A stretch of DNA of 64,000 nt. It comes from a virus. This document shows positions 2,395 through 49,028 of the stretch, piece after piece. Within the stretch, counting starts at the first letter, position 1. Each line of letters opens with the position of its first letter. Both the position numbers and the translations under genes were made by a program. Where the stretch lies: IMG/VR virus record IMGVR_UViG_3300005264_000022, positions 1 to 64,000 of that record, one strand, 5' to 3'. A model generated the notes under the pieces. The model was not told the DNA's origin and did not search any database. It saw nothing but the letters and a program-made list of their open reading frames with translations.

Positions 2395-2634
2395 CTACAC
2401 TTCCAAAACGCTAGTATAACTAGAATCACCACAAGTCTCGCATCTATCTCCATATTCACCTTTACCATAACTTTCAGTAATATCTATAATAATACTATTC
2501 ACATCATCAATATTTAAATGATCTGCTAAGTAATGTAAAATTCCTCTTAACTCTTCATTTGTATGTTTACTAATACATTTACCATCTATATCCATTACAT
2601 CATGGGTACACCCATCTACTTTAATTAATTCCAT
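2395..2634 (-). CDS. small protein with C-terminal CxxC
   Basis: 79 residues starting MELIKVDGCTHDVMDIDGK and ending with a CETCG pair, likely half of a metal site. The gene starts 14 nt inside the 3' end of folD, so it is co-translated with it. Function unknown. Confidence 0.5.
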   Translation of the reverse strand: MELIKVDGCTHDVMDIDGKCISKHTNEELRGILHYLADHLNIDDVNSIIIDITESYGKGEYGDRCETCGDSSYTSVLEV

Positions 2635-3466
2635 TTTTGCCCTCCTTGTAACTGTCTACTACATTCCTTACCAAATATCCTCTAGTGATTAAACCTACTC
2701 CACCAATATATGGAGTGTATCTAGCAATAGCTCTACATTCTTCATTAAAATCTCCTACAATCTTCCCATTAACTCTACTAACACCCACATCTATTAGAAT
2801 TGGTTTATTTGCACCTAAATGTCCTCTCTGTATCAATCTAGGTCTGCCTACGCATGATATAACTGCATCGCAATCATGAAACTCATTTTGCTTTATTACT
2901 GATCTTGACGTATAGCATGACACTGTAACTCCTAAATTAATTAGCATTTGTACTAGGTATTTTCCTGTTGTCTTACTTCTAGCTCCTACTACTGCCATTT
3001 TCTTTCCAGCAATAGAATCTAATTCGTTATACAACAAAGATACAATTCCTCTTGGAGTAGCAGGGATTTTACTTAGATCCCCTAAACATATACTAGCATA
3101 AGCTCTGTCTGTAAGATGATCTACATCTATAATTCCTCCACTAAGTACTTCATTTTCATATGCTTCTATACAGTTCTGTGGTGCAGGTAATTGGAGTATA
3201 GCTCTTTTACCTTCGTTAAACTCTAACATACACATTTCTCTTAAAAATTCATCCTCTGTTAATTTAACTATATTACAAGTTATATTAGCCTCATCAGAGG
3301 TTTTATGTTTTAAAGACACATAGATATCAGATGCAGGATCAACTTTTCTATTCTCATCCTTTATTATGTAGCAAGTATATTTAACCTTCACATTTAATTT
3401 TTTAACGTCCTCTATTACTTTATTTATTACCTTCTTGTAGAACTCTTTTGTATTTATCTTATTCAC
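2621..3466 (-). CDS. folD: FolD: methylenetetrahydrofolate dehydrogenase / cyclohydrolase
   Basis: 281 residues, the normal length of bacterial FolD. Family hallmarks in order: Y49xxxK53 (IYVSLKHK, catalytic Tyr/Lys), QLPAP, DVDHLT, TPRGIVSLL, the NADP-binding GKKMAVVGARSKTTGKYLV, ISCVGRP, IDVGVSRV, VGDFN and the C-terminal GGVGLIT loop. It interconverts 5,10-methylene-THF with 10-formyl-THF in the cytosol, feeding purine and thymidylate synthesis. A folate gene is unusual in a phage; with the ribonucleotide reductase and dUTPase in this arm it makes sense as nucleotide supply. It sits between small genes and DNA ligase in one operon. Confidence 0.9.
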   Translation of the reverse strand: MNKINTKEFYKKVINKVIEDVKKLNVKVKYTCYIIKDENRKVDPASDIYVSLKHKTSDEANITCNIVKLTEDEFLREMCMLEFNEGKRAILQLPAPQNCIEAYENEVLSGGIIDVDHLTDRAYASICLGDLSKIPATPRGIVSLLYNELDSIAGKKMAVVGARSKTTGKYLVQMLINLGVTVSCYTSRSVIKQNEFHDCDAVISCVGRPRLIQRGHLGANKPILIDVGVSRVNGKIVGDFNEECRAIARYTPYIGGVGLITRGYLVRNVVDSYKEGKNGIN

Positions 3467-18863: not shown

Positions 18864-19465
18864 TTATTTACCACTAGCACCTAACTTGCCTTCTATTTGG
18901 TTGTGTATCCTAGTATGATTTGAATGTGATAATACCACTAAATTATCTATGTTATTATTTTGCTTATCTAAATCTATATGGTGTACCGCATAATCCATAC
19001 TTAAAAATTCTTTATCATTAATTACTATTTTATTTACACTATTCAGTAGATGCCTTTCTGCTACTAATCTGTGCTTATAATACCTACCATCCTTATCTTG
19101 AAATGGATGATCTCCACAATATATTTTCATATACCCACTACTAGACACCGTTTCCCATCTTTGAATGATGCGTTTAATTTACCTTTTAGTCCATATTGAT
19201 GATTATTTTTTCCGCTAAAGGATGTTGACATATATTTATTACTACATTCTCTTCCGCAACAGCTTGTTTTGCTCTTTTTTAATTGGCTTTTCTTTTTATA
19301 AAACTCTATACCACAAATAGGACATTTGCAATTTGGTTCGTTATTCCATTTTTTATACAAGTCTGTACACTTACTGGAACAAAAATTTCCTAATTTATAT
19401 TTTTTATGCTTTATAAATTCTTTGCCACATTGTTTACATTTTGTTTTATCTACCCGTACTTCCAA
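18864..19465 (-). pseudogene. HNH homing endonuclease split by a frameshift
   Basis: Two overlapping frames together make one enzyme. The first (from about TTG 19465) has zinc knuckles KCKQCGKEF and CPICGIEF and a NUMOD3-like GKNNHQYGLKGK, ending SFKDGKRCLVVGI. The second (GTG at 19148) starts SSSGYMKIYCGDHPFQDKDG and has the HNH core AVHHIDLDKQNNNIDNL with a later SNHTRIH. One extra base at the GGGAAACGG position would join them. It overlaps the 3' end of dut, a typical parking place for a homing gene. Confidence 0.65.
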
Positions 19466-19907
19466 CTCCACCCTCCCTTTTTTTGGTAACATTGCACCCA
19501 TCTGCTACTAAATATTTCTCAAATATACCTTGGCATACTCTTTCGCCAACATTTAACCACACATCATCTTCACCATAATTATGCAATGCTATTCCTATAT
19601 TTCCATCATTTTTAGGATTAGAATAATAATCAGAATCAATTATTCCTGTCCCATTAGATATTCTTACTTTTCTTTTAATACCTATTGAACTTCTAATATG
19701 CAACTTTAACACTTCGTCATCTTGCATATAAGCTTTTACATCACTCATAGTCATAACAGTTTCATTAGGCTTTATTCTTATATCCTCTTTTATTCTAAAA
19801 TCATAACCTGCACTTTTTGAACTACCCCTAGTTGGTAATATTGTTATACTCGTATGTTTTCCGCACTTTCCATCAACTTCTCTAAATCCTCTAATTTTTA
19901 CATTCAA
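19446..19907 (-). CDS. dut: dUTPase
   Basis: 153 residues; TTG start at 19907 behind GAGGAGG. All five trimeric dUTPase motifs are present: SAGYDF, RSSIGIK, NGTGIIDSDYY, GERVCQGIF and REGGVGSTGR. It hydrolyses dUTP to dUMP, keeping uracil out of phage DNA and supplying thymidylate synthesis. Operon with small zinc and metallopeptidase genes. Confidence 0.93.
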   Translation of the reverse strand: MNVKIRGFREVDGKCGKHTSITILPTRGSSKSAGYDFRIKEDIRIKPNETVMTMSDVKAYMQDDEVLKLHIRSSIGIKRKVRISNGTGIIDSDYYSNPKNDGNIGIALHNYGEDDVWLNVGERVCQGIFEKYLVADGCNVTKKREGGVGSTGR

Positions 19908-20037
19908 TTTTCTTTTCCTCCTCTAATTCTATACACTCATATTCAGTACCACAATATACACATTTATATTTATTAATATCTATTCCAACTTTTAATTTAT
20001 TCTTACAGTTAATGCAAGTTATTATTTCATAATTCAT
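19891..20037 (-). CDS. small zinc-ribbon protein (48 aa)
   Basis: Starts in a TAATG overlap with the upstream stop (20037) and ends 17 nt inside dut. It has TCINCKNK and KCVYCGTEYEC, two CxxC pairs about 17 residues apart: a zinc ribbon of the Com/zf type. Function unknown. Confidence 0.55.
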   Translation of the reverse strand: MNYEIITCINCKNKLKVGIDINKYKCVYCGTEYECIELEEEKKIECKN

Positions 20038-20366
20038 TACATATAATCCTTCATCACAACAAACATCTTAGGCATCTGAACCGCTATCCAATCCACTAGA
20101 GATTCATCGTGACACCACTCTACACCTGCAACCCCCGACTCGTCCATGAACGCATGAATTAACTCATGTCTTATTGTTTTATTATTAAATTTAGATAAGT
20201 CCTCCTTGCATCTTAGGGTTCTATTCATTAAATCACTTCTTACAACTACCTTATTTACCGAACTATCGCAATAAGCATTTAATTCATCTAAATTTTCATC
20301 TTCTTCTATACTTTTAAACAATACATCATACTCACTACCTAAAATATTAACTTTAAAATCTTCCAT
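20037..20366 (-). CDS. zincin-like metallopeptidase
   Basis: 109 residues with RHELIHAFMDESG (HExxH) near residue 66 and a downstream WCHDESLVDWIA helix that supplies a third acidic ligand. Small phage zincins of this layout are common; substrate unknown. RBS GGAGG, start directly after the alpha-CTD-like frame. Confidence 0.6.
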   Translation of the reverse strand: MEDFKVNILGSEYDVLFKSIEEDENLDELNAYCDSSVNKVVVRSDLMNRTLRCKEDLSKFNNKTIRHELIHAFMDESGVAGVEWCHDESLVDWIAVQMPKMFVVMKDYM

Positions 20367-20552
20367 TTATACCTCCAAATAACTATATTTATCAATCAAC
20401 TCTAATATTTCTTCGCAACTTTTTCTACCTAAATTCTTTATTAATAATAAATCTTCTTTTTTTAATTTAATCATTTAATCTACAGTATCAATTCCAACCT
20501 CTTTAAGACAATTAAATGATCTAACTGTCATACCAGTATATTCTAATTCCAT
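20367..20552 (-). pseudogene. RNA polymerase alpha C-terminal domain mimic with an in-frame ochre codon
   Basis: Frame from ATG 20552 (GGAGG upstream) reads MELEYTGMTVRSFNCLKEVG then IDTVD, TAA, and in the same frame MIKLKKEDLLLIKNLGRKSC and EEILELIDKY. This is the helix-hairpin-helix alpha-CTD: LxxTGLSVRSxNCLKxxGIxTV, DLIxLxEEDLLxIKNLGxKSxEEI. The single TAA at 20475 replaces roughly one residue. An ATG immediately follows it, so two half-domains could also be made by restart. Confidence 0.65.
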
Positions 20553-20563
20553 TTACACCTCCA

Positions 20564-21178
20564 TTATCTAATACAAAATTCTTTAAAGTGTGGTAAAGTT
20601 TCACACCAATCACAAAAATTTCCCCAATCCTCTTTTAATTTATGCGTCTTTCTTTGTTGATATATCGTTTTTAATTGTAAATAATTAGACGTAACTCTCA
20701 TAGACTGCTCTAACCCCATTGGTGTATTTGATATAATTTTCATATACACTTCATATTTGGACATAACACAATCTACAATCTCATCATACCTATTATAAAT
20801 ATCTATCCATTTATTTAAATTTTCAATCACAATATCATCTACGTATCCATTACAACTCTTCTTTATATCCATTTTGGTTAGCCTGTGCATTTTACTTGTG
20901 CTAGACACTATATCATGAAATGAGTATCTTTGGAATTGTGGTGTCCAATAATTAGGATACTTTACATCAAATTGCACTATAACTCCCTTCAAAAAATTGT
21001 CATGCCCTGTGCCAGTTTTTACATTACCCAACTTAATTGCTCTTTTTATATCAGTATCTTCTACCATGTCAACCGCATCATCATCCCATTCACCAATATC
21101 ATTCGATCTCATTGGATAACCACTAGCTATTACACTCTCTTCTAATCCGTAAATCCTCGTGTTGCATATCTCTAGCAT
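20564..21178 (-). CDS. conserved phage protein of unknown function
   Basis: 204 residues. KLGNVKTGTGHDNFLKGVIV, then YWTPQFQRYSFHDIVSSTSK with MHRLTKM, and NTPMGLEQSMRVTSNYLQLK are blocks with the strong conservation pattern of an enzyme core, but I cannot name the family. It has its own consensus promoter at 21215-21243. Confidence 0.55.
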   Translation of the reverse strand: MLEICNTRIYGLEESVIASGYPMRSNDIGEWDDDAVDMVEDTDIKRAIKLGNVKTGTGHDNFLKGVIVQFDVKYPNYWTPQFQRYSFHDIVSSTSKMHRLTKMDIKKSCNGYVDDIVIENLNKWIDIYNRYDEIVDCVMSKYEVYMKIISNTPMGLEQSMRVTSNYLQLKTIYQQRKTHKLKEDWGNFCDWCETLPHFKEFCIR

Positions 21179-21214
21179 TTTTTCTCATCTCCTCTATTTA
21201 TTTAATGCACAATC

Positions 21215-21243
21215 ATTATATCAAACATATAAAACATTGTCAA
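21215..21243 (-). promoter_or_regulatory. perfect-consensus promoter
   Basis: Leftward TTGACA, 17 nt, TATAAT; the -35 overlaps the stop codon of the RuvC-like gene. Drives 21178 to dut. Confidence 0.85.
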
Positions 21244-21992
21244 TTAAATTTTACTTTTTCTTTTAATATATGAAGCCCAATCATGATTGCCTCACTTTCG
21301 TCCTCATTTTTTTCCATGCCCATTACATCTCTAACATATTTGATGGCTTTAGCTTTTGCATCTTCTCTATTATTTTTGCCCTTAAAAAATGATGCTCTCC
21401 ATACATTAGGCAATACTAATTCAAACTTATAACCTTCGCATATCAACCTGTCAATTATAGCCCCCTGTAGCTCTGCGAGAGCCTTGAATGATGTTACCCC
21501 TGTATTTCCATGAGAAGATAGAAATATATCCTCTATCACCACTATATCAACCTTGTGTTGCTTTATACGGAACATCACCTCATTTATCATCTTGTGGATT
21601 CTAATAGATTTATTCTTATCTGATTTAGATATTATCCCCGACTCGATATAATTAACACCTAACGAAAAACTATACCCCGTCACTTTGGTTGCCAAATCTA
21701 ATGCAAATATTCCATAATCATCACCAACAACAATTTTACTTTTATTTAGCAATGGGGTTTTGACTTTAGCTTTTGACTTTGGTTTTGCTTTTGACTTTGG
21801 TTTTTGAAAAGAGAAAGTTACAGCTCCATTTTTAATTTGATTGTAGTCTACAATCTTCACCTTTCCGTTTATAACAAACCTAATTCTATACTTATGTTTA
21901 GATGATTTTAGACCTAAATATTCCTCCACTACGAAAATTTCATTACCTTTTGCTTTATGTACAGTTTTAACGAACCCTTTATAATTAATCAA
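21240..21992 (-). CDS. RuvC-like Holliday-junction nuclease with N-terminal extension
   Basis: 250 residues. RNase H-fold core from residue ~95: FALDLATKVTGYSF (first Asp), VDIVVIEDIF (Glu), ALAELQGAII, and EDESEAIMIGLHIL (C-terminal acidic pair). Likely resolves recombination and replication junctions before packaging. The N-terminal ~75 residues form a separate beta domain joined by a Lys/Pro/Ser repeat (KPKSKAKPKSKAK). It overlaps the next gene's stop by 4 nt. Confidence 0.75.
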   Translation of the reverse strand: MINYKGFVKTVHKAKGNEIFVVEEYLGLKSSKHKYRIRFVINGKVKIVDYNQIKNGAVTFSFQKPKSKAKPKSKAKVKTPLLNKSKIVVGDDYGIFALDLATKVTGYSFSLGVNYIESGIISKSDKNKSIRIHKMINEVMFRIKQHKVDIVVIEDIFLSSHGNTGVTSFKALAELQGAIIDRLICEGYKFELVLPNVWRASFFKGKNNREDAKAKAIKYVRDVMGMEKNEDESEAIMIGLHILKEKVKFN

Positions 21993-22687
21993 TCAACATC
22001 ACCCCAAACCACTGTCATCATCTTAGAGTATATATCTCTCAAACAAGCAACTGCTTTGCCTTCATATATCCTACTACCTCTTAGATATTTTTCATCTATA
22101 TTATATTCTTTTATCCTCTTACATCCCGACTTGAAATATAACAATAAATTCATCTGATCTTCCTCAATACCACACCACTCCATAAAGTTGTCACACTCAT
22201 TAGTAGCTCTGTATTTTCTATCAGTTTTCAATATCAATGTTACCAACTCTCTTTTATACCAAGATAGCTTAGGTCTTCCATGTGAATTAGCTTGATGATT
22301 AACGTTCAGCTTGTTCAGTCTAACAACCCTTCCTAGAAAGAATGTAGCTAATCTCTTTTGGAAATCTGTATAATGCAATTCATTCATTTTTATCAATTCT
22401 AATTCTGTATAGTAATCATCAATTCTAGCTATTCCACTATTGTTATTCTTATACTTTCTATATACATTTCTAAATCTATTTAGTATTGCAATCTTTGCTC
22501 CATTTTCATTCTGTAATTTTTCTAGTCTTCTGCAATCATCTACTATGAAATATACATAACAATCAGATATTATATCCTCTTTGCTCATTCCAACTTTCAT
22601 ATTAGATAAGTCTTTAACAAAATTGTTTATATAAGGCTCTTTGCATCTGCTAATTAATATATTCCAAAATTCCTCTTTGTCTATCAT
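21989..22687 (-). CDS. hypothetical protein
   Basis: 232 residues, helical and basic; MSKEDIISDCYVYFIVDD faintly recalls sigma-factor region 2, but no -10 or -35 binding helices follow convincingly. RBS GGGAGGAG. Unknown function. Confidence 0.45.
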   Translation of the reverse strand: MIDKEEFWNILISRCKEPYINNFVKDLSNMKVGMSKEDIISDCYVYFIVDDCRRLEKLQNENGAKIAILNRFRNVYRKYKNNNSGIARIDDYYTELELIKMNELHYTDFQKRLATFFLGRVVRLNKLNVNHQANSHGRPKLSWYKRELVTLILKTDRKYRATNECDNFMEWCGIEEDQMNLLLYFKSGCKRIKEYNIDEKYLRGSRIYEGKAVACLRDIYSKMMTVVWGDVD

Positions 22688-23355: not shown

Positions 23356-26300
23356 TTAATGGCAGTGCGAATATCCGCAATCATAACACTGTTGGCAACC
23401 ACCTATTGAAGCTAATTCCCCACCACAATCTGGACATTTTTTACTTTCTATTATAGCAGAAGTCGATTTTGGTTTTGGTTTTGAAACTTCTTTTTTTATA
23501 TTAACACTTTTAAATTCCCCACCCATATTGTCTTGGACAGATATTATAGCATCTATTAAAATATTTGGACAATTAATACCATCAACAGCTCTACCTCTCA
23601 TTCTTGAAGATACACAAGAATTGCAACCTTCTATTCCTTTTACAGATTCTTTTATATCTCTCAAGTCTCCACCCAATCTTAATACTTGAGATATGAGGAT
23701 TGCTTCCCCTGTAATATTTTTAGTACAACCACTTCCCATCTTTGGTATTACATAACAATCTGTAACTCTCGACTCTGATTGTGAATATCCTATCATAACC
23801 TTCATTTCTCCACATCCATGTGTTATCTTTTTGGGTATATAATATGTATCGCTAGGAACTTCAGACATAATACCTCTTTCTAATACAGGATAAGTATCCA
23901 ACTCTTCTTCTTTTATATCATTTAAGACTCCATCGAGTGAACCATCTACATATATGCTCATTGAGGTTACTCCACGCTTCCATGCTTCTATGTACATATC
24001 TTTAATTTCATCACATGACACATCTTCTTTTAAATTTGTAGTATTAGAAGAACACATATCTGTATATTTCTGTATTGATTCTAACATCTTAACTTTAGAT
24101 AAAGGAGATATTTCTCTTGAATCCACACAAGCTTCTATGTCACCACCATTATCAATACATTTTTGTATCTGTGGATGTTTTATTGTAAAAGTATCATATT
24201 CTCCTCTAACTCCATCTTTAGTTACAGACCTAGTATATTCACTTCTAAATACAGGCTCTATCCCTGTAGAATAACCTAACATTGTTGATCCAGTTCCCGA
24301 AGGTGCATGAGCCATTAATGCACAATTTCTTAATCCTTTAATATATTGCAAACCTTTTTCTTCCATTTCTTTTTCCATTGATAAGATGGTTTCCGATTGC
24401 CCTCTTGTTGAACCCATGTATACAGACGCATCTATACAAGCCCCTTGCATTCTCATGGTCAACTCTTTTGTAAATTCAATTGCCTCGTCAGATCCATATT
24501 TCAAGCCTAACGCTATAAGACAATCAGCTAAAGACGTAATTCCTAGCCCCAAATTTCTCCATTCTTTAGCAACAATTCTTTGTTTTTCTAAAGGATTTCT
24601 ATCTATACCTTCATCTAATATAGTATCCATTTCTTGTATTACCTCAAATACATCTTTATAAAAATTCTCATAATCAAATTCTGCTTTCTTAGTAAATGGA
24701 TTTTTAACATAATTACAAGCAACCATAGTGGCTAATAGGCAAGTAGCACCATCTATTCCAACCATCTCATTACATCCATTTTGTGACATATCTGCGGTCA
24801 TTACAGAATTACCGAATAAATGATAATATTTAAACCTATCTACAAATACCAATGCAGGATCAAAAGCTTTCTTAGGAATGTCTATTATGGCATCCATTAT
24901 CTTAACTGTATCTACTGTATGCTCTATAGTTTCTCCTGTATCTTCAACGAAATAGTCCGCCCTATATGATTCTTTGTTTACATAATGTTCCATAAATCTA
25001 TCTGTTACATACATAGAAATATTTGTTGATAATAAATCACCAGTAAACCCTTCATTTTTTTTCTTAATTGCTATAAACTCTAAAGCATCAGGATGTTCTA
25101 CACTTAAAGTCTGTAACAAAGCTCCCCTTCTTCCACTACTTCCTGCCATTGTATTCTCTGTTGCATTGTCGAATATTTTAGCAAAAGGAACTACACCTGC
25201 CGTGGTATTTTCTCCTCTTCCTGCTTTCGCACCTTTTGGTCTAATGTTTGATAAGCACAAACCAACACCTTGTCCTGCTTGATACATCTTCATTAATTCT
25301 GTCTGTGTATCGCCTATTGCCTCTATTGAATCCTTTATGTAAGCTTGTGTGGCACAGTTATGTGTAAGAATATTCCCTTCTAAGCAAAATGATTGGCTTG
25401 ATGGAACTACTGCACAGTAAACAGTTTCTTTGATTCCAGTTCTTTCTACACTTCTTATTTTTTCATTGTGAAATGTATTCTCTTCTGTTTCTATTAGAAT
25501 ATGATTTTTATTTAAAAAGAACCATTTTGGTAAACTTTTAACATCTAAAGTTAATCTGTATAACCTTGATTCTTTTTCTGTTAAATTACTTACCCTCTCA
25601 TGCACTTTTATTTCGTTCGTAGGGACGCCTAAAGATGCTAATATATCGTTCACTATTTCTAAATTTTCTATAACAGTTGAAGTTATAACGGCTCTGTTTT
25701 CACTTAAACACCCATCAGTAGCAAAATATCCAGCCAAGAAACCTAATAAGTACCCTTTAGTTTCTTTTAAAGTTGGTATTTTGTTTATAAAGTTAGGTAG
25801 TCCACTTATTACAGTCTGATCTAATTCTTCATTTTCAGTAATGCTACCAGTATTATTAAAATATTTGACAAATTCTCTTTTATCGCCACAAAGAGTTAGG
25901 TTGTTGTATTTTTTATTGTGACTTCCATCACCAAAAAACATACCGTGAGCTACTCCGAATGTACACATATTCACAACCGATATGTTTCTTCTACCATTGT
26001 GTATCTTTTTCAACAAAGTGCCTTCTCTTAAATCCTTTGTGAATACTTCCTTATAGTGATTGCTGTCTCTAGTTGGTCTTGAGTTCCTAGCGAACCATAT
26101 ATGATCTTCTGTAGCAAATATTTCCTTTCCATTAGTTAAAGTTATTTTCAATAGTTCTTGTACACCAAACTCTTTAGATTCGGCTTTTACAAAAGTTCCT
26201 GTCTTATCCAAAACTTTAAATTCTTTTCCAACGAGCGAATCTATACTTCTTAAACCTTTATCTGTGACTATTCTAGTGTCTTTTCTAAAACAATTAGAAA

Positions 26301-26520
26301 AAGACATTCCGTTGTCTATTCCTCTGTTAGCCATTATCCTTCCACCAAATATAACTTTTTTATCCTTTATTAATTTTTCAATTTCTTTATTTCCTCCGCC
26401 AACTCTATTACAAAATTGATCTACCGCTTCTCCTTTTTGAAAATATTTTTCTGTTGCTATTTTATATCCCAAGTCAGTCTTTCCAACCCATTCATATACA
26501 TCCTGTCTATCCTTTTTCAT
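23356..26520 (-). CDS. nrdJ: class II (B12-dependent type) ribonucleotide reductase with intein
   Basis: 1,054 residues: about 742 of enzyme interrupted by a 312-residue intein at residues 77-388. The extein reads GMSFSN / CATQAY, then QAGQGVGLCLSNIRP, GRRGALLQTLSVEHPD, NGCNEMVGIDGATC, AHAPSGTGSTM and the C-terminal redox tail GGCQQCYDCGYSHCH. The enzyme reduces ribonucleotides to deoxyribonucleotides and, being class II, needs adenosylcobalamin but no oxygen; that suits an anaerobic host. RBS AGGAGG. Same operon as the HNH gene at 26536. Confidence 0.88.
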   Translation of the reverse strand: MKKDRQDVYEWVGKTDLGYKIATEKYFQKGEAVDQFCNRVGGGNKEIEKLIKDKKVIFGGRIMANRGIDNGMSFSNCFRKDTRIVTDKGLRSIDSLVGKEFKVLDKTGTFVKAESKEFGVQELLKITLTNGKEIFATEDHIWFARNSRPTRDSNHYKEVFTKDLREGTLLKKIHNGRRNISVVNMCTFGVAHGMFFGDGSHNKKYNNLTLCGDKREFVKYFNNTGSITENEELDQTVISGLPNFINKIPTLKETKGYLLGFLAGYFATDGCLSENRAVITSTVIENLEIVNDILASLGVPTNEIKVHERVSNLTEKESRLYRLTLDVKSLPKWFFLNKNHILIETEENTFHNEKIRSVERTGIKETVYCAVVPSSQSFCLEGNILTHNCATQAYIKDSIEAIGDTQTELMKMYQAGQGVGLCLSNIRPKGAKAGRGENTTAGVVPFAKIFDNATENTMAGSSGRRGALLQTLSVEHPDALEFIAIKKKNEGFTGDLLSTNISMYVTDRFMEHYVNKESYRADYFVEDTGETIEHTVDTVKIMDAIIDIPKKAFDPALVFVDRFKYYHLFGNSVMTADMSQNGCNEMVGIDGATCLLATMVACNYVKNPFTKKAEFDYENFYKDVFEVIQEMDTILDEGIDRNPLEKQRIVAKEWRNLGLGITSLADCLIALGLKYGSDEAIEFTKELTMRMQGACIDASVYMGSTRGQSETILSMEKEMEEKGLQYIKGLRNCALMAHAPSGTGSTMLGYSTGIEPVFRSEYTRSVTKDGVRGEYDTFTIKHPQIQKCIDNGGDIEACVDSREISPLSKVKMLESIQKYTDMCSSNTTNLKEDVSCDEIKDMYIEAWKRGVTSMSIYVDGSLDGVLNDIKEEELDTYPVLERGIMSEVPSDTYYIPKKITHGCGEMKVMIGYSQSESRVTDCYVIPKMGSGCTKNITGEAILISQVLRLGGDLRDIKESVKGIEGCNSCVSSRMRGRAVDGINCPNILIDAIISVQDNMGGEFKSVNIKKEVSKPKPKSTSAIIESKKCPDCGGELASIGGCQQCYDCGYSHCH
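25357..26292 (-). mobile_element. LAGLIDADG intein inside the ribonucleotide reductase
   Basis: Begins at Cys77 (CFRKDTRIVTDKGLRSIDSL), has block B ending in ATEDHIWFA, two dodecapeptide-like motifs (GVAHGMFFGDGS and LLGFLAGYFATDG), block F around VYCAVVPSSQSFCLEGN and terminates ILTHN before Cys389. All splicing residues (Cys1, terminal His-Asn, +1 Cys) are present, so it should splice. The full-size middle implies an active homing endonuclease. Confidence 0.9.
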
Positions 26521-39392: not shown

Positions 39393-39581
39393 CTAAATCT
39401 TCAACTTAGATCCCTTCTTGAATCTTACAACTTCTTTCTGTGGTGTTATAACTTCTTTGCCATTTACCACCGATCTTCTTTCTCCTTGCATTGCCTTATA
39501 AAACTTCCCAAATCCAGAGAATCCAACCTCTCCTTCTTTAGCTACCTCTACATATCTTACTACAAACTCTTTCTTGTTCAA
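39393..39581 (-). CDS. HU-like DNA-bending protein, shortened
   Basis: 62 residues; TTG start at 39581 behind AAAGGAGG. GFSGFGKFYKAMQGERRSVV then NGKEVITPQKEVVRF is the HU beta-arm region (GFGxF ... Rxxxx NPxTGExI ... xVxFKxGxxLK). The N-terminal helical part is only ~20 residues instead of ~45, so dimerisation may differ. Behind its own consensus promoter. Confidence 0.7.
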   Translation of the reverse strand: MNKKEFVVRYVEVAKEGEVGFSGFGKFYKAMQGERRSVVNGKEVITPQKEVVRFKKGSKLKI

Positions 39582-39615
39582 ACCTTTTCCTCCTTTTATT
39601 TTATGTGTTGAGTGT

Positions 39616-39644
39616 ATTATAGCACACTCATAAGCTTATGTCAA
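39616..39644 (-). promoter_or_regulatory. perfect-consensus promoter
   Basis: Leftward TTGACA, 17 nt, TATAAT; the -35 overlaps the end of the DUF-type gene at 39641. Drives the HU-like gene and those beyond. Confidence 0.85.
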
Positions 39645-39988
39645 CACAATTCTCCTAAATATATAAATTCTTTTTCATTAGCTATGCAAAACTCCTCTAG
39701 TAATCCTACTAATATATTCCTATGACAGAATTTACCTAGATCACAATAACAAGCCAATGACACCACATCCTCGCTACACAACTCTAGCCATGCAGATTTA
39801 TTATCTATCATACTCTTTCTCATTCTATTAATGTATAGCTCTGTAAATTCTTCCTCTGTTATCTTATTCATTTTCTTATTCCATACCATTTGCCAACTAG
39901 GGGAGAATATTGGATTTCCAGTTTTGATTGTGACATCTTTATATCCATTAGCTTTATAGTTAGAAATGTGGATAGTGTAGGCTAACAC
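39641..39988 (-). CDS. DUF488-like small phage protein
   Basis: 115 residues; the late motif SLACYCDLGKFCHRNILVG (CxC ... FCHR) is typical of small phage proteins of the DUF488-related group. Biochemical role not known. Overlaps the Rha-like gene by 7 nt. Confidence 0.65.
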   Translation of the reverse strand: MLAYTIHISNYKANGYKDVTIKTGNPIFSPSWQMVWNKKMNKITEEEFTELYINRMRKSMIDNKSAWLELCSEDVVSLACYCDLGKFCHRNILVGLLEEFCIANEKEFIYLGELC

Positions 39989-40740
39989 TCCTTATCCATA
40001 TTAGCTTTTACACCCTTACTCTCTAATAAATTATGTATCATAATTCTACCCTTCTGTCTCCACTTTGTATTTAACTTAGTTCTAATATTCCCATAGCCAT
40101 CATCATATTCTACTGTTTCAGATTTAGTATAGCCTTTTGATAAGTGTTGAGAATATAATAACCATTGACCACTTTGCTTATATTGCACTTTCTCTTCATG
40201 TAGTATCTTATTTAAAGATTGACCGCTTATATCATAATCCTTTGCAATCTGAGTGACCGTCAACAAGTCATCTGATCTTAATATACTATCATAATACTCT
40301 ACCTTTGGCTCATACTCAGTTATTAACATTTCTTGCTCTTTAGTTTTATACTCTAGTTCCATGACTATTTTTTGCTCTTTTATCCAAGCCTCTGCTCTAG
40401 CAATAGGATCTACTATTTGGTAACTAGGTAATGCAATATTGTTTTCTAATTCTCTGCAATACTTAATTAGTTTCATTCTATGAGTTGCAGAATACCCTGT
40501 TATAATAAGCATTAATCCATCTTTTGATAGTGTATAATTTTTTACCCTCTTATTCTGCTTTGATAAGAATGTGGACTCTGAAATGTCACTATCCACTTTT
40601 GGATGCTCCTCTAAACCCCTTATTTCTATTAGTATTTTTTCAATGTCTCTTTTTACATGCCCATGTTCTTTTCCTGTTAATTCCGCTATCATATTACTTG
40701 TTATTTTATCATCTTCTATTTCCATTTTAATTAATTCCAT
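39982..40740 (-). CDS. Rha-family regulator with KilAC domain
   Basis: 252 residues. N-terminal Rha domain: TSNMIAELTGKEHGHVKRDI, YTLSKDGLMLIITGYSA. C-terminal KilAC winged-helix domain: SDDLLTVTQIAKDYDISGQS, then LNKILHEEKVQYKQSGQWLL and TKWRQKGRIMIHNLL. A paralogue lies at 49170 on the other strand. Rha proteins interfere with growth or regulate phage genes in related systems. Confidence 0.85.
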   Translation of the reverse strand: MELIKMEIEDDKITSNMIAELTGKEHGHVKRDIEKILIEIRGLEEHPKVDSDISESTFLSKQNKRVKNYTLSKDGLMLIITGYSATHRMKLIKYCRELENNIALPSYQIVDPIARAEAWIKEQKIVMELEYKTKEQEMLITEYEPKVEYYDSILRSDDLLTVTQIAKDYDISGQSLNKILHEEKVQYKQSGQWLLYSQHLSKGYTKSETVEYDDGYGNIRTKLNTKWRQKGRIMIHNLLESKGVKANMDKEC

Positions 40741-40918
40741 TCAACTCCTCCTTATATAATAAATCTTCGTTTAATTCCCACAATGGACACATCGGCAAAA
40801 TAAAATCCTCTACCCTTTCTCTATTGTTAGTTGCACAATACATAGCTCTAATTTCATTTAATCTTGTATGCTTGCAAGTTGCACAAGCCTCTGTTAGTTC
40901 ATATTCGCCTATTTTCAT
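40727..40918 (-). CDS. small Cys-rich protein
   Basis: 63 residues with ACATCKHTR, YCATNN and MCPLWE: four Cys that could hold a metal. Overlaps both neighbours by 14-20 nt. Unknown. Confidence 0.5.
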   Translation of the reverse strand: MKIGEYELTEACATCKHTRLNEIRAMYCATNNRERVEDFILPMCPLWELNEDLLYKEELNGIN

Positions 40919-41819
40919 TTGATTCCCCTGTTAGTTTTTTAAATTTAAATACATAGTTATATTTTTCTTTTGTTTTTTTTGAAGCTTTCTGTTTTTCTAT
41001 TTCTACATCTAATATATTCCTATCTTTTAAATCCTGTATAGCTTTATTTAATACTCCTATTCCAAATGTTCCCATATTTTTATAATTTACACCAAAAAAA
41101 TCTTTTATATATTCATAACCAATAGGATAAGTTTTTGATTTCCCTTTCCATATACTATATAATTCATATATTCTAACTTGATGTTTTGTTAAATTAAACT
41201 GTTTTCCATATATGTTACAATCAAAGAATATAGATTTACCATCTTTTTCTCCATTTGTAACAATATTATTAAATTCATTTTTGTTTATAGTAATCTTAAA
41301 CACATTTAAAAATATTTCTTTTGCATCAAGTATTAATGTATCTTTTAACCATATTTTTGTCAATAATGAAACAACACTTCTTTTTACAATATTATCCGTT
41401 CCTCCATGTCTATCGCCATATATATATTTATTTATTAAATCTATATCTATTAAAATATTATCACTATTTCCATAATTATAATATTCATTTATTATATAAA
41501 TTCCTACTTTTATCTCCGCTAAAGTAATATCACTATTTCTATTGACAATGCCTTCTTTAGAAAAAGGTATATCATTTTTTCTTATGCGTCTAATACTACC
41601 AAGCCCGTGAGCTTCTCTATGACATTTACTACATAAAGTCATTAAGTCGCTTATATTCTCATTCTCTAAGTTATCATAATTAAGGTGATGTATTTGCAGT
41701 CCCTTTTTCTTACCACACATTTCACATACTGGATTGTGTTGTAACTTTTCTTCACGTTTATTTTGCCAATGTTCTGATTTTAAATATACCTCTCTATACC
41801 ATTTTTGTCTTTTAGTCAT
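40899..41819 (-). CDS. HNH nuclease fused to a Rep_3-like initiator domain
   Basis: 306 residues. Residues 1-80 are an HNH domain (PVCEMCGKKKGLQIHHLNYD, then LMTLCSKCHREAH). From ~95 on, the protein is colinear with its neighbour at 41812: shared blocks include FNLTKHQVRIYELYSIWKGK, IKDFFGVNYKNMG and LNKAIQDLKDRNILDVEIEK. This winged-helix segment resembles the C-terminal half of Rep_3/RepB plasmid initiators (LYELL ... LKxLLGV ... LxxAIKEI). The HNH fusion is absent from the paralogue. Confidence 0.65.
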   Translation of the reverse strand: MTKRQKWYREVYLKSEHWQNKREEKLQHNPVCEMCGKKKGLQIHHLNYDNLENENISDLMTLCSKCHREAHGLGSIRRIRKNDIPFSKEGIVNRNSDITLAEIKVGIYIINEYYNYGNSDNILIDIDLINKYIYGDRHGGTDNIVKRSVVSLLTKIWLKDTLILDAKEIFLNVFKITINKNEFNNIVTNGEKDGKSIFFDCNIYGKQFNLTKHQVRIYELYSIWKGKSKTYPIGYEYIKDFFGVNYKNMGTFGIGVLNKAIQDLKDRNILDVEIEKQKASKKTKEKYNYVFKFKKLTGESNENRRI

Positions 41820-42615
41820 ATTTTATTTCTCCTTCTAATTTTTTAAATTTAAATATATAGTTGTACTTGCCACTTTTGTATCCAGTTGCTTTAACCTTTT
41901 CTATATTTATATCTAACATATTTCTTTCTTTTAAGTCCTGTATAGCTTTATTTAAAGCTCCAATTTTAAAAGCTCCCATATTCTTATAATTTACATTAAA
42001 AAAATCTTTAATATAACTGTCATAACCTACTGCATAAGTTCTTGATTTACCTCTCCATAAATAATATAACTCATACAATCTAATTTGGTGTCTAGTTAAA
42101 TTATATCTGCTTCCATATATCCATGGCGGAATAAATATAGTATTCCCATCTTTTTTTGCATTAATATTTAATATAATATTTTCAATTAATGGAGCATCAA
42201 CTAAAATATCTATATACTCTCTTTTATATTTATATTTTACTGTTTTAAAAACAAAAGCTCTACGTATTTCGATTTCTTCATTTTCATAATATTTAACCCA
42301 AGCTTCTCCAATTATTTTATCTACAGCTTCGTCTACATTATTGAAATTTCTTTTTTGATTTGGATTCGAGTGCATATACTCAAACATATCTTTTACACTA
42401 CATCTTATTCCAAACAAAGATTGTACTTTTCCATTAAGCTCATGTTTTTGTTCTATCATATTATGAGTTTTTCCCTCAAATCTCAATTTTGTATTTTTAT
42501 AATATTGATCTAAAACAAAAACGCCATACCTAACCTCCATAGGCTTTAATTTGTTATTTCTATTAACCACCGTTTTATTATTAAATGGTAGCGAATCATA
42601 TTTCTCTTTTTTCAT
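41812..42615 (-). CDS. Rep_3-like replication initiator candidate
   Basis: 267 residues from the ATG at 42615, which has AAGGAGG upstream (the frame opens at 42645). Shares its C-terminal winged-helix half with 40899-41819 (LTRHQIRLYELYYLWRGK, YIKDFFNVNYKNMG, LNKAIQDLKERNMLD). The N-half begins KTVVNRNNKLKPMEVRYGVF, also present in the paralogue. It is first in the leftward arm, directly beside the repeat-rich region 42700-42930, the position expected of an iteron-binding initiator. Family call is by pattern, not search. Confidence 0.6.
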   Translation of the reverse strand: MKKEKYDSLPFNNKTVVNRNNKLKPMEVRYGVFVLDQYYKNTKLRFEGKTHNMIEQKHELNGKVQSLFGIRCSVKDMFEYMHSNPNQKRNFNNVDEAVDKIIGEAWVKYYENEEIEIRRAFVFKTVKYKYKREYIDILVDAPLIENIILNINAKKDGNTIFIPPWIYGSRYNLTRHQIRLYELYYLWRGKSRTYAVGYDSYIKDFFNVNYKNMGAFKIGALNKAIQDLKERNMLDINIEKVKATGYKSGKYNYIFKFKKLEGEIKYD

Positions 42616-42643: not shown

Positions 42644-42672
42644 ATTATAACACAATCTTTTTTAAAAGTAAA
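42644..42672 (-). promoter_or_regulatory. leftward promoter of the initiator genes
   Basis: Leftward TTTACT, 17 nt, TATAAT preceded by GATTGTGT. Copies of an AAGTAAAG-type word cover and precede the -35, so it is probably regulated. Confidence 0.7.
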
Positions 42673-42700
42673 GTATTTTTATCTTTTTTTATCTTAAGTG

Positions 42701-42761
42701 AAAGTACCTTTACTTTAAAAAATACAAACACCTTTATCTTAAATGGGAATACCTTTACTTT
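42701..42761. repeat. short direct repeats beside the leftward promoter (operator/iteron-like)
   Basis: The word ACCTTTACTT occurs at 42706 and 42751 and as ACCTTTATCTT at 42730, spaced 24 and 21 bp. Further partial copies of the complement (AAGTAAAG) lie at the promoter itself. Spacing near two helical turns suggests protein binding on one face. Confidence 0.55.
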
Positions 42762-42835: not shown

Positions 42836-42869
42836 CTTTAACAAGTATTAACCTTTAACAAGTATTAAC
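42836..42869. repeat. perfect 17 bp tandem duplication
   Basis: The 17-mer CTTTAACAAGTATTAAC occurs twice head to tail (42836-42852, 42853-42869) with no gap or mismatch. It lies between the two divergent promoters, 190 bp from the initiator gene. Confidence 0.75.
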
Positions 42870-42873
42870 TATC

Positions 42874-42926
42874 GTTATTATATAGAAGAATACACGTTTA
42901 CACTTTGCATTAATCTATATAATAAC
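42874..42926. repeat. perfect 12 bp inverted repeat
   Basis: GTTATTATATAG (42874-42885) and CTATATAATAAC (42915-42926) with a 29 nt spacer. The spacer carries TTTACA and the right arm TATAAT (15 nt apart), so it may hold a suboptimal promoter or a melting site. Confidence 0.65.
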
Positions 42927-43028: not shown

Positions 43029-43057
43029 TTGACACTATTCTAAATCTATGATATTAT
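43029..43057 (+). promoter_or_regulatory. rightward vegetative promoter
   Basis: TTGACA, 17 nt, TATTAT. First promoter of the plus-strand arm; about 150-180 nt of untranslated leader follow before the KilA-N gene, including a GTGGTTT/AAGCCAC hairpin. Confidence 0.78.
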
Positions 43058-43244
43058 TATTTCATAAAGCAGAATACAGATAGCCAATAATTTACCGAGC
43101 TAGGAGTATTTGAAGTAAATAGTATATGAGAGTAGAAATAAGAGAGTTTATATGTAAAGGTATGCAATGATATAGGTAAGGTGGTTTGAAAGCCACTACG
43201 GTCACGAGAGAGTGCTTAGAATTGAAATGGGAGATGATTGGAAT

Positions 43245-43946
43245 ATGGATTTAGCAACAAAGATATTTGAAGGTAAAGAAATTAAATTTAGAAGAGATGA
43301 TGGCGAGTTGTATATGAATGTTAATAGTATAGCAGATAAGTTTATGATTGATAATTGGAAAAGAAGTGCTAATACTATTAGATATATAAAAGCATTAGTT
43401 AGCTCCCTAGAATCTACGGAGTTTAATAAAGATAAAAGTCGTAAATTTAACAACTTGGACTTAACGCTTGATAATGTTGACCTAAATACAAACTACGTAA
43501 AATCTACGGAGTTTATAATCACACAAGAAGGTAGAAATGGTGGAACATGGATACATGAAAAATTAATACTAAGTTTTGCAAGATATATTTCAGTAGAATT
43601 TGAAATATGGGCAGATGAAGTTATTAAAAAAGTTATACAAGATGGGTATTATATTTCAGAGAAAATAAATATAGATCAAATCAATAAGCTAGAGCAAACA
43701 CTAAATAATATGGAGATAGATTTAAATTTAGTTAAAACTTCATTATTTGTAGCTAGAGATCAAAGAGATGAGTTTGAAACTAAACTAAATAAGACTAGTG
43801 AATATAAGGCGGATTATAATGTATTCAATAGAAAATTAGCTGAGAGAGATGAAACTATAAGAGAACAAAATAAAATGTTAGCTATAGCTAGGTGGGATAT
43901 TCTAGTGTTAAAAGATGATATTTCAGTATTAAAGGAGGATAAATAG
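43245..43946 (+). CDS. KilA-N domain protein
   Basis: 233 residues from the ATG at 43245 (GGGAG 11 nt upstream; an in-frame GTG lies at 43212). KilA-N core: GELYMNVNSIADKFMIDNWK, then EGRNGGTWIHEKLILSFARY and EFEIWADEVIKKVI. A long C-terminal coiled coil follows. KilA-N proteins bind DNA and are often early regulators. Confidence 0.82.
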   Translation: MDLATKIFEGKEIKFRRDDGELYMNVNSIADKFMIDNWKRSANTIRYIKALVSSLESTEFNKDKSRKFNNLDLTLDNVDLNTNYVKSTEFIITQEGRNGGTWIHEKLILSFARYISVEFEIWADEVIKKVIQDGYYISEKINIDQINKLEQTLNNMEIDLNLVKTSLFVARDQRDEFETKLNKTSEYKADYNVFNRKLAERDETIREQNKMLAIARWDILVLKDDISVLKEDK

Positions 43947-48094: not shown

Positions 48095-48953
48095 AGTTAT
48101 AAGTGATTAGGCACTATAAAGAGGGATACGAAATTTATATACCACCTAGAGATAATATATGGGAAGAACGTTAGGATTTATTCGTGCAATGGGATAGCGT
48201 TCACGATAGAGAGGTTTGGGTATTTTCTATCAAAGCAATAAGTCGAGAACAGCGGACGGGACTACAAACCTCACCGCACATATGGATATTTAGCTCAAAT
48301 GGTAGAGGAGCTGTCGGCACAGGCGGTTAGTTGTGGGTTCAAATCCCATAATATCCAAAACTATTATTAAATAGTGATGTAACTATTAACTATCGGTGCT
48401 AGTAGATCCGATTAATTAAAATAACTCTAAAGGAGTAGAGACTTCCTATATGTAGAATAAAAGTTGACGGCAAAACTGTTACAAGACGCTTGGCTATATG
48501 TCATAAAAGTATCAGTCCGATTATAAGATGTCGGTTAAAATTGAGGTTGCAAACTCAATATCTTTTAGAATTATTCCATATATACTTAGTAGCGAAAGAC
48601 AATCACCTCTCATAGAAGTGTCTCATGTGTCTCCTAGTAATAGGACGGATTGAAAGGTATATCCTTATAAGATGGAGTAAAATAAAAACCAATTCGAAAG
48701 CTCAATCGTTAAGAGCATTAAAAAAGTATGGCTTATGCTTAGGTCGGTAGATTAATTTCTGAAAGTAATTCGAGGTTATAATTGGACGTGCCTTGAATGA
48801 TAAGTATTTTATATGATGACCTCTTAGAGCCAAGAGGTAGCTAATCAAAAGAAGGCTCAATCAGAAGAAAAAGATTTTGTATCAACTTATCATTTATTTG
48901 AAAGGAGGTCAACATTATCTCGGCATCTGCCCTCCGTTATGGGTAGTAAATAT
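48095..48953 (+). ncRNA. large structured non-coding RNA candidate (GOLLD/ROOL-like setting)
   Basis: About 860 nt between a perfect promoter and a tRNA gene with no convincing reading frame on either strand. It is far more GC- and purine-structured than the neighbouring coding DNA and rich in stems: GAGGTTTG/CAAACCTC (48211, 48265), CTATT/AATAG (48361), ATCGG/CCGAT (48393), CTCTA/TAGAG (48425), ATTGAG/CTCAAT (48539), CCTA-GTAA-TAGG with a GNRA loop (48633), CCTCTT/AAGAGG (48820) and GGAGG/CCTCC (48904). Phage position, length and the adjacent tRNA match the giant RNAs called GOLLD and ROOL. That identity is inference; no sequence match could be tested. End and exact start unknown. Confidence 0.6.
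48284..48357 (+). ncRNA. tRNA-like fold inside the large RNA, no usable anticodon arm
   Basis: GGATATT/AATATCC form a 7 bp acceptor, GCTC...GAGC a D-arm with a GGTAGA loop, and GTGGG-TTCAAAT-CCCAT a canonical T-arm. The bases between (CTGTCGGCACAG region) do not make a 5 bp stem with a 7 nt loop. So it is a decayed tRNA or a tRNA-like module. A second cloverleaf-like piece, CCAATT...AATTGG with a GCTC/GAGC arm, lies at 48689-48785. Confidence 0.45.
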
Positions 48954-49028
48954 AATCCGTTGGTGTAATTAGTAGCACGAGATTCTCCAAAAATTTAAGC
49001 GAGGGAGCATAACCTTCACGGATTGCCA
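48954..49028 (+). tRNA. tRNA-Trp (anticodon CCA), CCA end encoded
   Basis: Acceptor AATCCGT/ACGGATT (7 of 7), D-arm GTGT/GCAC, anticodon stem AGATT/AATTT with loop CTCCAAA, T-arm GAGGG/CCTTC, discriminator G and CCA. The T-loop is AGCATAA rather than the usual TTCRANY, so it departs from the canonical form there. It directly follows the structured RNA and is probably cut from the same transcript. Confidence 0.85.

Follow-up and report, generated by a model that had tools for sequence, protein, structure and literature searches.

Results of our analysis indicate that the window (the whole stretch of phage DNA analysed here, 64,000 bases long) very probably contains, at 42.64-42.93 kb, an iteron-type replication control region, most likely an early or plasmid-like theta origin, which would be driven by Rep1, the product of the gene directly downstream of the iterons. 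The gene that follows rep1 encodes HNH-Rep2, in which a nuclease domain of HNH type is fused to a second Rep-like protein. By analogy with free-standing HNH enzymes of phage T4, we favour for HNH-Rep2 the role of a homing-type HNH endonuclease, with the Rep domain serving for targeting, and rank it above the roles of an origin nickase and of a negative regulator. The iteron origin and the homing-type reading of HNH-Rep2, taken together as one statement based on sequence, have in our estimation an even chance of being correct.

The window comprises bases 1-64000 of the 68,790-base virus record IMGVR_UViG_3300005264_000022 (G000), classified in IMG/VR as 'linear'. Since no end repeat of at least 12 bases is present between the first and the last 3 kb of this record, the genome is probably incomplete. 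Its genes are on the minus strand from 1 to 42.6 kb and on the plus strand from 43.2 kb onwards. The minus-strand side encodes a PolIII-type DNA polymerase, a DnaB-like helicase, a DnaG-like primase, and an ATP-dependent ligase, as well as a ribonucleotide reductase and several methylases; the plus-strand side includes the gene of a DUF3383 protein. The DNA polymerase is closest (about 36% identity) to those of phages infecting Clostridioides, Bacillus, and Thomasclavelia. Two related phages, with one rep gene each, encode Reps 58-60% identical to Rep1: IMGVR_UViG_3300036466_000234 (G002), which is syntenic with most of the window, and IMGVR_UViG_3300036940_000134 (G003, also L016). The locus is known from three genomes only. 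Neither a tyrosine integrase (PF00589) nor ParA (PF13614) was found in these three records, all of which are possibly fragments. The phage of the window encodes antirepressors (KilAC/Rha), and their presence, together with the incompleteness of the record, makes the label 'lytic', given to this phage in the preliminary description, an assumption.

Several other features of the window can be noted. A FolD-like protein (phrog_7320, tetrahydrofolate dehydrogenase/cyclohydrolase) is encoded at the end of the early operon (2621-3466). Two tRNA genes are present at 48283-48358 (called tRNA-Cys, with the anticodon aca, which is atypical for Cys) and at 48954-49028 (tRNA-Trp, cca). The ribonucleotide reductase is specified by one 1054-aa ORF (23356-26520), to which two separate ORFs with about 1 kb between them correspond in G002 (19389-22634), which suggests an inserted element or a split gene in the latter phage.

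Table 1. Predicted features of the rep region, in window coordinates.
Feature	Position	Strand	Basis
HNH-Rep2 (306 aa), fusion of an HNH nuclease with a second Rep-like protein	40899..41819	-	ORF, Pfam, BLASTP
Rep2 part of HNH-Rep2; WH1 strongly diverged and shortened, WH2 conserved	40899..41597	-	
HNH domain part of HNH-Rep2, residues 1-74, CxxC...HH...CxxCH	41598..41819	-	PF01844
Rep1 (267 aa from ATG 42615), divergent Rep_3-like initiator with two winged helices	41812..42615	-	profile and fold; Rep3_C 14.8 bits
Putative rep promoter, TTTACT-17-TATAAT	42644..42672	-	
Inverted partial iteron, AAAGTAAAGT, across the -35 box of rep; putative operator for autoregulation	42665..42674	+	
Fourth, decayed iteron-like copy, AAGATAAAAAAA, 21 nt beyond iteron 3 and in register with it	42684..42695	-	direct reading of the sequence
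Iteron 3, AAAGTAAAGGTA	42705..42716	-	
Iteron 2, AAGATAAAGGTG (variant)	42729..42740	-	
Iteron 1, AAAGTAAAGGTA	42750..42761	-	
AT-rich 17-bp tandem repeat, two copies; possible unwinding element or operator	42836..42869	.	
21-nt inverted repeat; palindrome in the same place in relatives	42874..42926	.	
Putative divergent promoter facing the KilA-N gene, TTGACA-17-TATTAT	43029..43057	+	
Regulator with a KilA-N domain, encoded at the head of the divergent operon	43212..43946	+	PF04383, E 1.7e-13

The two minus-strand ORFs encoding related proteins, reported in the preliminary description, are both present. They are arranged in tandem, and the ATG of HNH-Rep2 overlaps the stop codon of Rep1 by 8 nt (ATGACTAA). 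The start of Rep1 listed in Table 1 is the likely one, since a GGAGG ribosome-binding site is located just upstream of it, while the ATG at 42645, from which the protein would be 277 aa long, overlaps the -10 box. The two proteins were also claimed to share about 200 residues. Their BLASTP alignment supports this as a whole (E 7e-54; 38% identity in 267 columns, of which 43 are gap positions), but only WH2 is well conserved: the C-terminal part of about 120 aa is 63% identical, vs. 17% identity with 39 gapped columns in the N-terminal half. The dN of the Rep1-Rep2 pair is 0.25 in WH2 (0.25-0.32 over the comparisons made) and 0.88 in WH1 (0.82-0.88); all these estimates are subject to saturation and to alignment uncertainty. 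We considered whether Rep2 stems solely from a simple, recent duplication of rep1, but WH1 is far more diverged than WH2, the distances of which are nearly star-like among Rep1, Rep2, and the Rep of G002. Rep2 may be a copy that evolves fast or, alternatively, a mosaic formed with another Rep. In the Rep_3 family, WH1 also binds DNA and serves dimerisation.

By profile and fold, Rep1 and HNH-Rep2 are clearly very divergent relatives of the two-winged-helix Rep_3 initiators, such as RepE and Pi, in agreement with the Rep_3-like winged-helix character ascribed to them earlier. An HMM was built from five bona fide Rep_3 proteins (Pfam-checked) and run on all ORFs of the three phages. The four phage Reps ranked first in this search (42.8-55.2 bits), followed by a divergent ORF of G002 (27.1 bits), with the next ORF at 6.5 bits. 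In the profile-profile comparison (hhalign), the phage Reps matched bona fide Rep_3 proteins at 97% (E 7e-11), vs. 0.6% for an unrelated control alignment, and the Rep of Dulem virus 30, a bona fide Rep_3 protein with both domains far over the Pfam cut-off, matched the phage Rep family at 92% (E 6e-7). Additionally, phrog_4402 ('replication initiation protein') matches the C-terminal part of HNH-Rep2 (E 3e-6) and the Rep of L016 (1.6e-4). The Pfam cut-offs of Rep_3 (PF01051/PF21205) are not reached by these proteins: the Rep3_C score is 14.8 bits for each of the window proteins and 17.5 bits at best in the group (Rep of L016), vs. the cut-off of 21.1, and Rep3_N (WH1) gives no Pfam match in the phage Reps. 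We therefore term them divergent Rep_3-like initiators. A tblastn search of plasmids with Rep2 returned only 34 records (Moraxella, Psychrobacter, and Acinetobacter; E 0.3-0.9), and the matches listed are annotated as RepM/RepB or replication initiators, except for one 'hypothetical' protein that passes as Rep_3 in Pfam.

The fold comparison was based on an AlphaFold model of the L016 Rep obtained from a four-row alignment, which is of low confidence (pLDDT 49). In Foldseek, this low-confidence model gave as its top matches structures in which RepE is complexed with operator or iteron DNA (E 3e-4 for the best one). With the same model of pLDDT 49, VIA matched both winged helices (residues ~23-260) to Pi with a Z of 8.2 and to RepE with a Z of 8.0, vs. 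4.8 for the first unrelated row. A Z of about 8 is weak alone and is made credible by the agreement of the sequence profile. An earlier model from three rows (pLDDT 44) gave meaningless Foldseek matches; it was the four-row alignment with another first sequence that led to RepE and Pi. The very divergent Rep_3-like ORF that follows the Reps in the HMM ranking (27.1 bits) was not found in the record of the window and has no Pfam match; it is located on the minus strand at 3206-3955 of L012 (G002:3206-3955), which is the same as L005:19663-20412.

Searches of phages, plasmids, and viral contigs with the Rep1 protein yielded nothing, likewise the two-sequence alignment, and the relatives were reached only via the phage DNA polymerase and a three-row alignment. 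Scans of genome contigs, as well as a scan of viral contigs with HNH-Rep2, gave zero relatives. When four large phages whose polymerases are related were searched by HMM, no Rep of the Rep1/Rep2 kind was revealed.

Directly upstream of Rep1, at 42684-42761, there is an array of three iterons and one decayed copy with a spacing of 21-24 bp (Table 1). The iteron core AARRTAAAGGTR occurs three times in 64 kb, in each case in this array, while its chance mean is 0.32 and none of 100 shuffles reached three occurrences. In G002, the sequence ACCTTTACTTT (top strand) is present in four copies at 24, 23, and 22 nt spacing, and the array of L016 is organized likewise; in the alignment of the three phages, the window is short of exactly one iteron unit. 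A PWM constructed from the eight sites of G002 and L016, with the window sites left out of training, has the three iterons of the window as its top sites in 64 kb, at 42702 (17.2 bits), 42747 (17.0), and 42726 (12.9). Thus, the presence of iteron-like repeats beside rep, as proposed in the preliminary description, is strongly supported by their conservation in both relatives. The clustering of direct and inverted repeats mentioned there was confirmed, and the repeats proved to be two 29-nt direct repeats at 42688 and 42733, the 17-bp tandem repeat, and the 21-nt inverted repeat, but their location, given as 42.70-42.93 kb, had to be corrected, as the iterons proper occupy 42684-42761 and the other repeats are further upstream. 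The iteron-pair DNA pattern was also used to search viral contigs. Beyond the two relatives it was found at seven loci, none of which encodes a Rep: four of the matches fall within other genes' coding sequence, and the remaining three are in non-coding DNA away from any locus of this type. These loci were rejected as relatives.

Promoter-like sites are located on both sides of this region, at 42672-42644 on the minus strand and at 43029-43057 on the plus strand, which is consistent with the divergent promoters postulated previously. The -10 box of the rep promoter with the surrounding 14 bp (GATTGTGTTATAAT) is identical in the window, G002, and L016, and the -35 box in the two relatives is TTGACT. 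As the -35 box of the rep promoter lies inside the inverted partial iteron, autoregulation is likely. The region is AT-rich (74%) and contains the conserved 17-bp repeats. In the case of the 17-bp tandem repeat and the palindrome (42836-42926), it is the position that is conserved in both relatives and not the exact sequence; these repeats may serve for unwinding or as an operator of the KilA-N gene. Convincing DnaA boxes were not found: only sites with one mismatch were seen, and their positions are not conserved between the window and the relatives.

From this arrangement we infer iteron binding, origin firing, and autoregulation by Rep1. Monomers of Rep1 would bind to the direct iterons, open the AT-rich stretch adjoining them, and recruit the DnaB-like helicase, DnaG-like primase, and PolIII of the phage itself, and dimers of Rep1 would repress rep at its promoter via the inverted half-iteron on the -35 box. 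The GC skew, proposed in the preliminary description as a check, does change sign between 41 and 45 kb, from about -0.37 to +0.46, but this switch is inseparable from that of gene direction. Since all genes turn direction where the skew flips, the skew cannot serve as separate evidence for an origin, and we dropped it from the argument.

It is rather doubtful that the repeats are solely a regulatory operator, with the Rep-like proteins acting as transcription factors of the divergent early operons and replication starting elsewhere. Such a function would agree with the position of the repeats between divergent promoters, beside the KilA-N regulator gene and the antirepressors, with the uninformative GC skew, and with the autoregulation known for many initiators. 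The Rep_3 family is defined by initiation, which argues against this possibility. Moreover, rep1 heads an operon that includes, downstream, the genes of the helicase, primase, and polymerase. The array, in which three to four direct iterons recur every 21-24 bp and which is conserved together with the gene, matches iteron origins, where three to seven iterons of 17-22 bp are located beside rep (PMC4980987).

The predicted iteron origin of the window resembles those of mini-F (RepE) and R6K (Pi) in the two winged helices of the initiator, in the array of three to four direct iterons that precedes rep, and in the overlap of the promoter by an inverted half-iteron. It differs from them in that the window Reps are only 11-15% identical to RepE and Pi and fall below the Pfam cut-offs, in the lack of clear DnaA boxes, in being carried by a large phage that encodes a replisome itself, and in the HNH fusion of one Rep copy. 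Rep_3 proteins of Dulem virus 30 (XCD06759.1) and Clostridioides phage HGP05 are likewise phage-borne, but, unlike those of the window, they pass the Pfam cut-offs and have no HNH seen by Pfam. A precedent for plasmid-type origins in tailed phages is provided by the extrachromosomal prophages of mycobacteriophages with RepA/parABS, in which the phage-encoded initiator RepA is sufficient for autonomous replication (PMC7157519). Those phages are temperate and carry parABS (PMC7157519), whereas no ParA was found in the incomplete record of the window.

The fusion of an HNH domain to one of the two Rep copies, noticed in the preliminary description, is confirmed by the PF01844 match at residues 32-71 of HNH-Rep2 (24.2 bits vs. 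the cut-off of 21.4). The HNH part ends at about residue 74, and the homology to Rep begins there, almost at the Rep N-terminus. In G002, rep is directly followed by a free-standing HNH ORF of 151 aa, which is 63% identical to the first 82 residues of the fusion and has an unrelated tail. The CxxC, HH, and CxxCH motifs are kept in both. In L016, a Bro-N antirepressor gene is located after rep instead of an HNH gene. Hence, the locus directly after rep, a general hot spot, occurs in three states in the three genomes: with a fused HNH (the window), a free-standing HNH (G002), and no HNH (L016). The simplest reading of these three sequences is that the fusion would be derived, rather than the free-standing gene being a product of fission. 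The idea of a captured homing domain is thereby supported in part, by the separate HNH of G002 and its absence in L016. Comparison of the fusion with its free-standing homolog gives a pN of 0.23 vs. a pS of 0.77 for the HNH, values to which saturation and alignment uncertainty likewise apply. Amino acid change is thus restrained in HNH and WH2, and not in WH1, and therefore the nuclease and WH2 look retained, while WH1 does not. An HNH-initiator combination was not met elsewhere in the collections searched, and no paper on HNH-initiator fusions was found in the open-access journal literature covered.

The hot spot extends between rep and a small conserved gene (39393-39581 in the window) and corresponds to 39600-41819 of the window, 4900-7830 of L011, and 6805-8140 of L016. 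Its content of antirepressor, DUF488, and HNH genes varies among the three relatives through gain and loss. Another HNH adjoining a replication gene is present in Thomasclavelia phage TR-TP1 (L018, 1995-6620), where the annotation divides the related PolIII gene into two parts that flank an HNH endonuclease gene.

In the case of HNH-Rep2, the nuclease activity, its target, and its role are what we infer from the composition and setting of the gene. Presumably, HNH-Rep2 arose by fusion of an HNH endonuclease gene, located immediately after rep, with the gene of a second Rep-like protein, and it would be a homing-type HNH nickase or endonuclease, the translation of which would be coupled to that of rep1. 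It would use the WH2 of Rep to find the rep/origin DNA of related co-infecting phages, and its action would favour the inheritance of its own rep region or exclude that of the co-infecting phages. Homing or exclusion at rep/ori is ranked first because the layout of HNH-Rep2 is like that of free-standing HNH enzymes of T4. One of them, MobE, comprises an HNH and a separate C-terminal region presumed to bind DNA, occurs sporadically, and is encoded by a promoter-less gene, the start of which overlaps the upstream stop codon; MobA and MobE nick one DNA strand (PMC2988022). HNH-Rep2 shares with MobE the HNH followed by a C-terminal region, the lack of a promoter, the ATG-stop overlap, and the sporadic occurrence. 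In contrast to MobE, its C-terminal region, as predicted from sequence, is a Rep initiator-like module related to the product of the neighbouring gene. What would count against the favoured reading is that an HNH-Rep2 aimed at iterons would meet also its own origin. A further reading, in which HNH-Rep2 is an origin-guided nuclease with an initiator domain re-used for aiming, attacks the origins of competing related phages or plasmids with the same iterons, and thereby exerts origin-targeted interference between mobile elements, appears unlikely.

The conservation of both HNH and WH2, as well as the location of the iterons about 0.9 kb upstream of the fusion gene, could also indicate that the nuclease acts on the origin of its own phage. 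In such a case WH2 would bind the iterons, and a nick would switch replication from theta to a recombination-dependent or rolling-circle mode, or end initiation. PhiX174 and filamentous phages switch modes with paired nuclease-active Rep proteins (PMC6854812). We consider this quite unlikely, since WH1 is the least conserved part of HNH-Rep2 and since, in the single-rep relatives, HNH is either a separate gene or missing, which implies that an HNH-Rep protein is not needed for replication in this group.

The retention of WH2 along with the divergence of WH1 might suit a mainly negative regulator, i.e., a WH1-defective Rep that would compete for iterons or form heterodimers with Rep1, with HNH being incidental. 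Antagonistic shorter forms of Rep are known, namely, Pi30.5 of R6K and RepR' of pIGRK (PMC6854812). Like HNH-Rep2, they are second, altered Rep forms encoded together with an active initiator, but they are N-terminal truncations of the same gene and have no nuclease, whereas HNH-Rep2 is the product of a separate gene and contains HNH. In this HNH, however, the metal and catalytic motif is preserved, and amino acid changes vs. the free-standing homolog are fewer than silent ones, which would be unexpected of an inert domain; we consider the mainly regulatory role rather unlikely. Even less probable is that HNH-Rep2 is a functionless chance fusion heading to decay: its WH1 is indeed strongly diverged and shortened, but the frame of 306 aa is without stops, and the amino acid sequence is conserved in both end domains. 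The homing-type endonuclease thus remains the role that we favour.

Phage-borne iteron origins beyond those of classical phage-plasmids are little described, and that predicted in the window is too divergent to be recognized by standard Pfam annotation. The three states of one locus raise the question whether the DNA-binding domain of an initiator can be recycled to target a homing or interference nuclease. If this is true, origins would be a target class in the competition between mobile elements.
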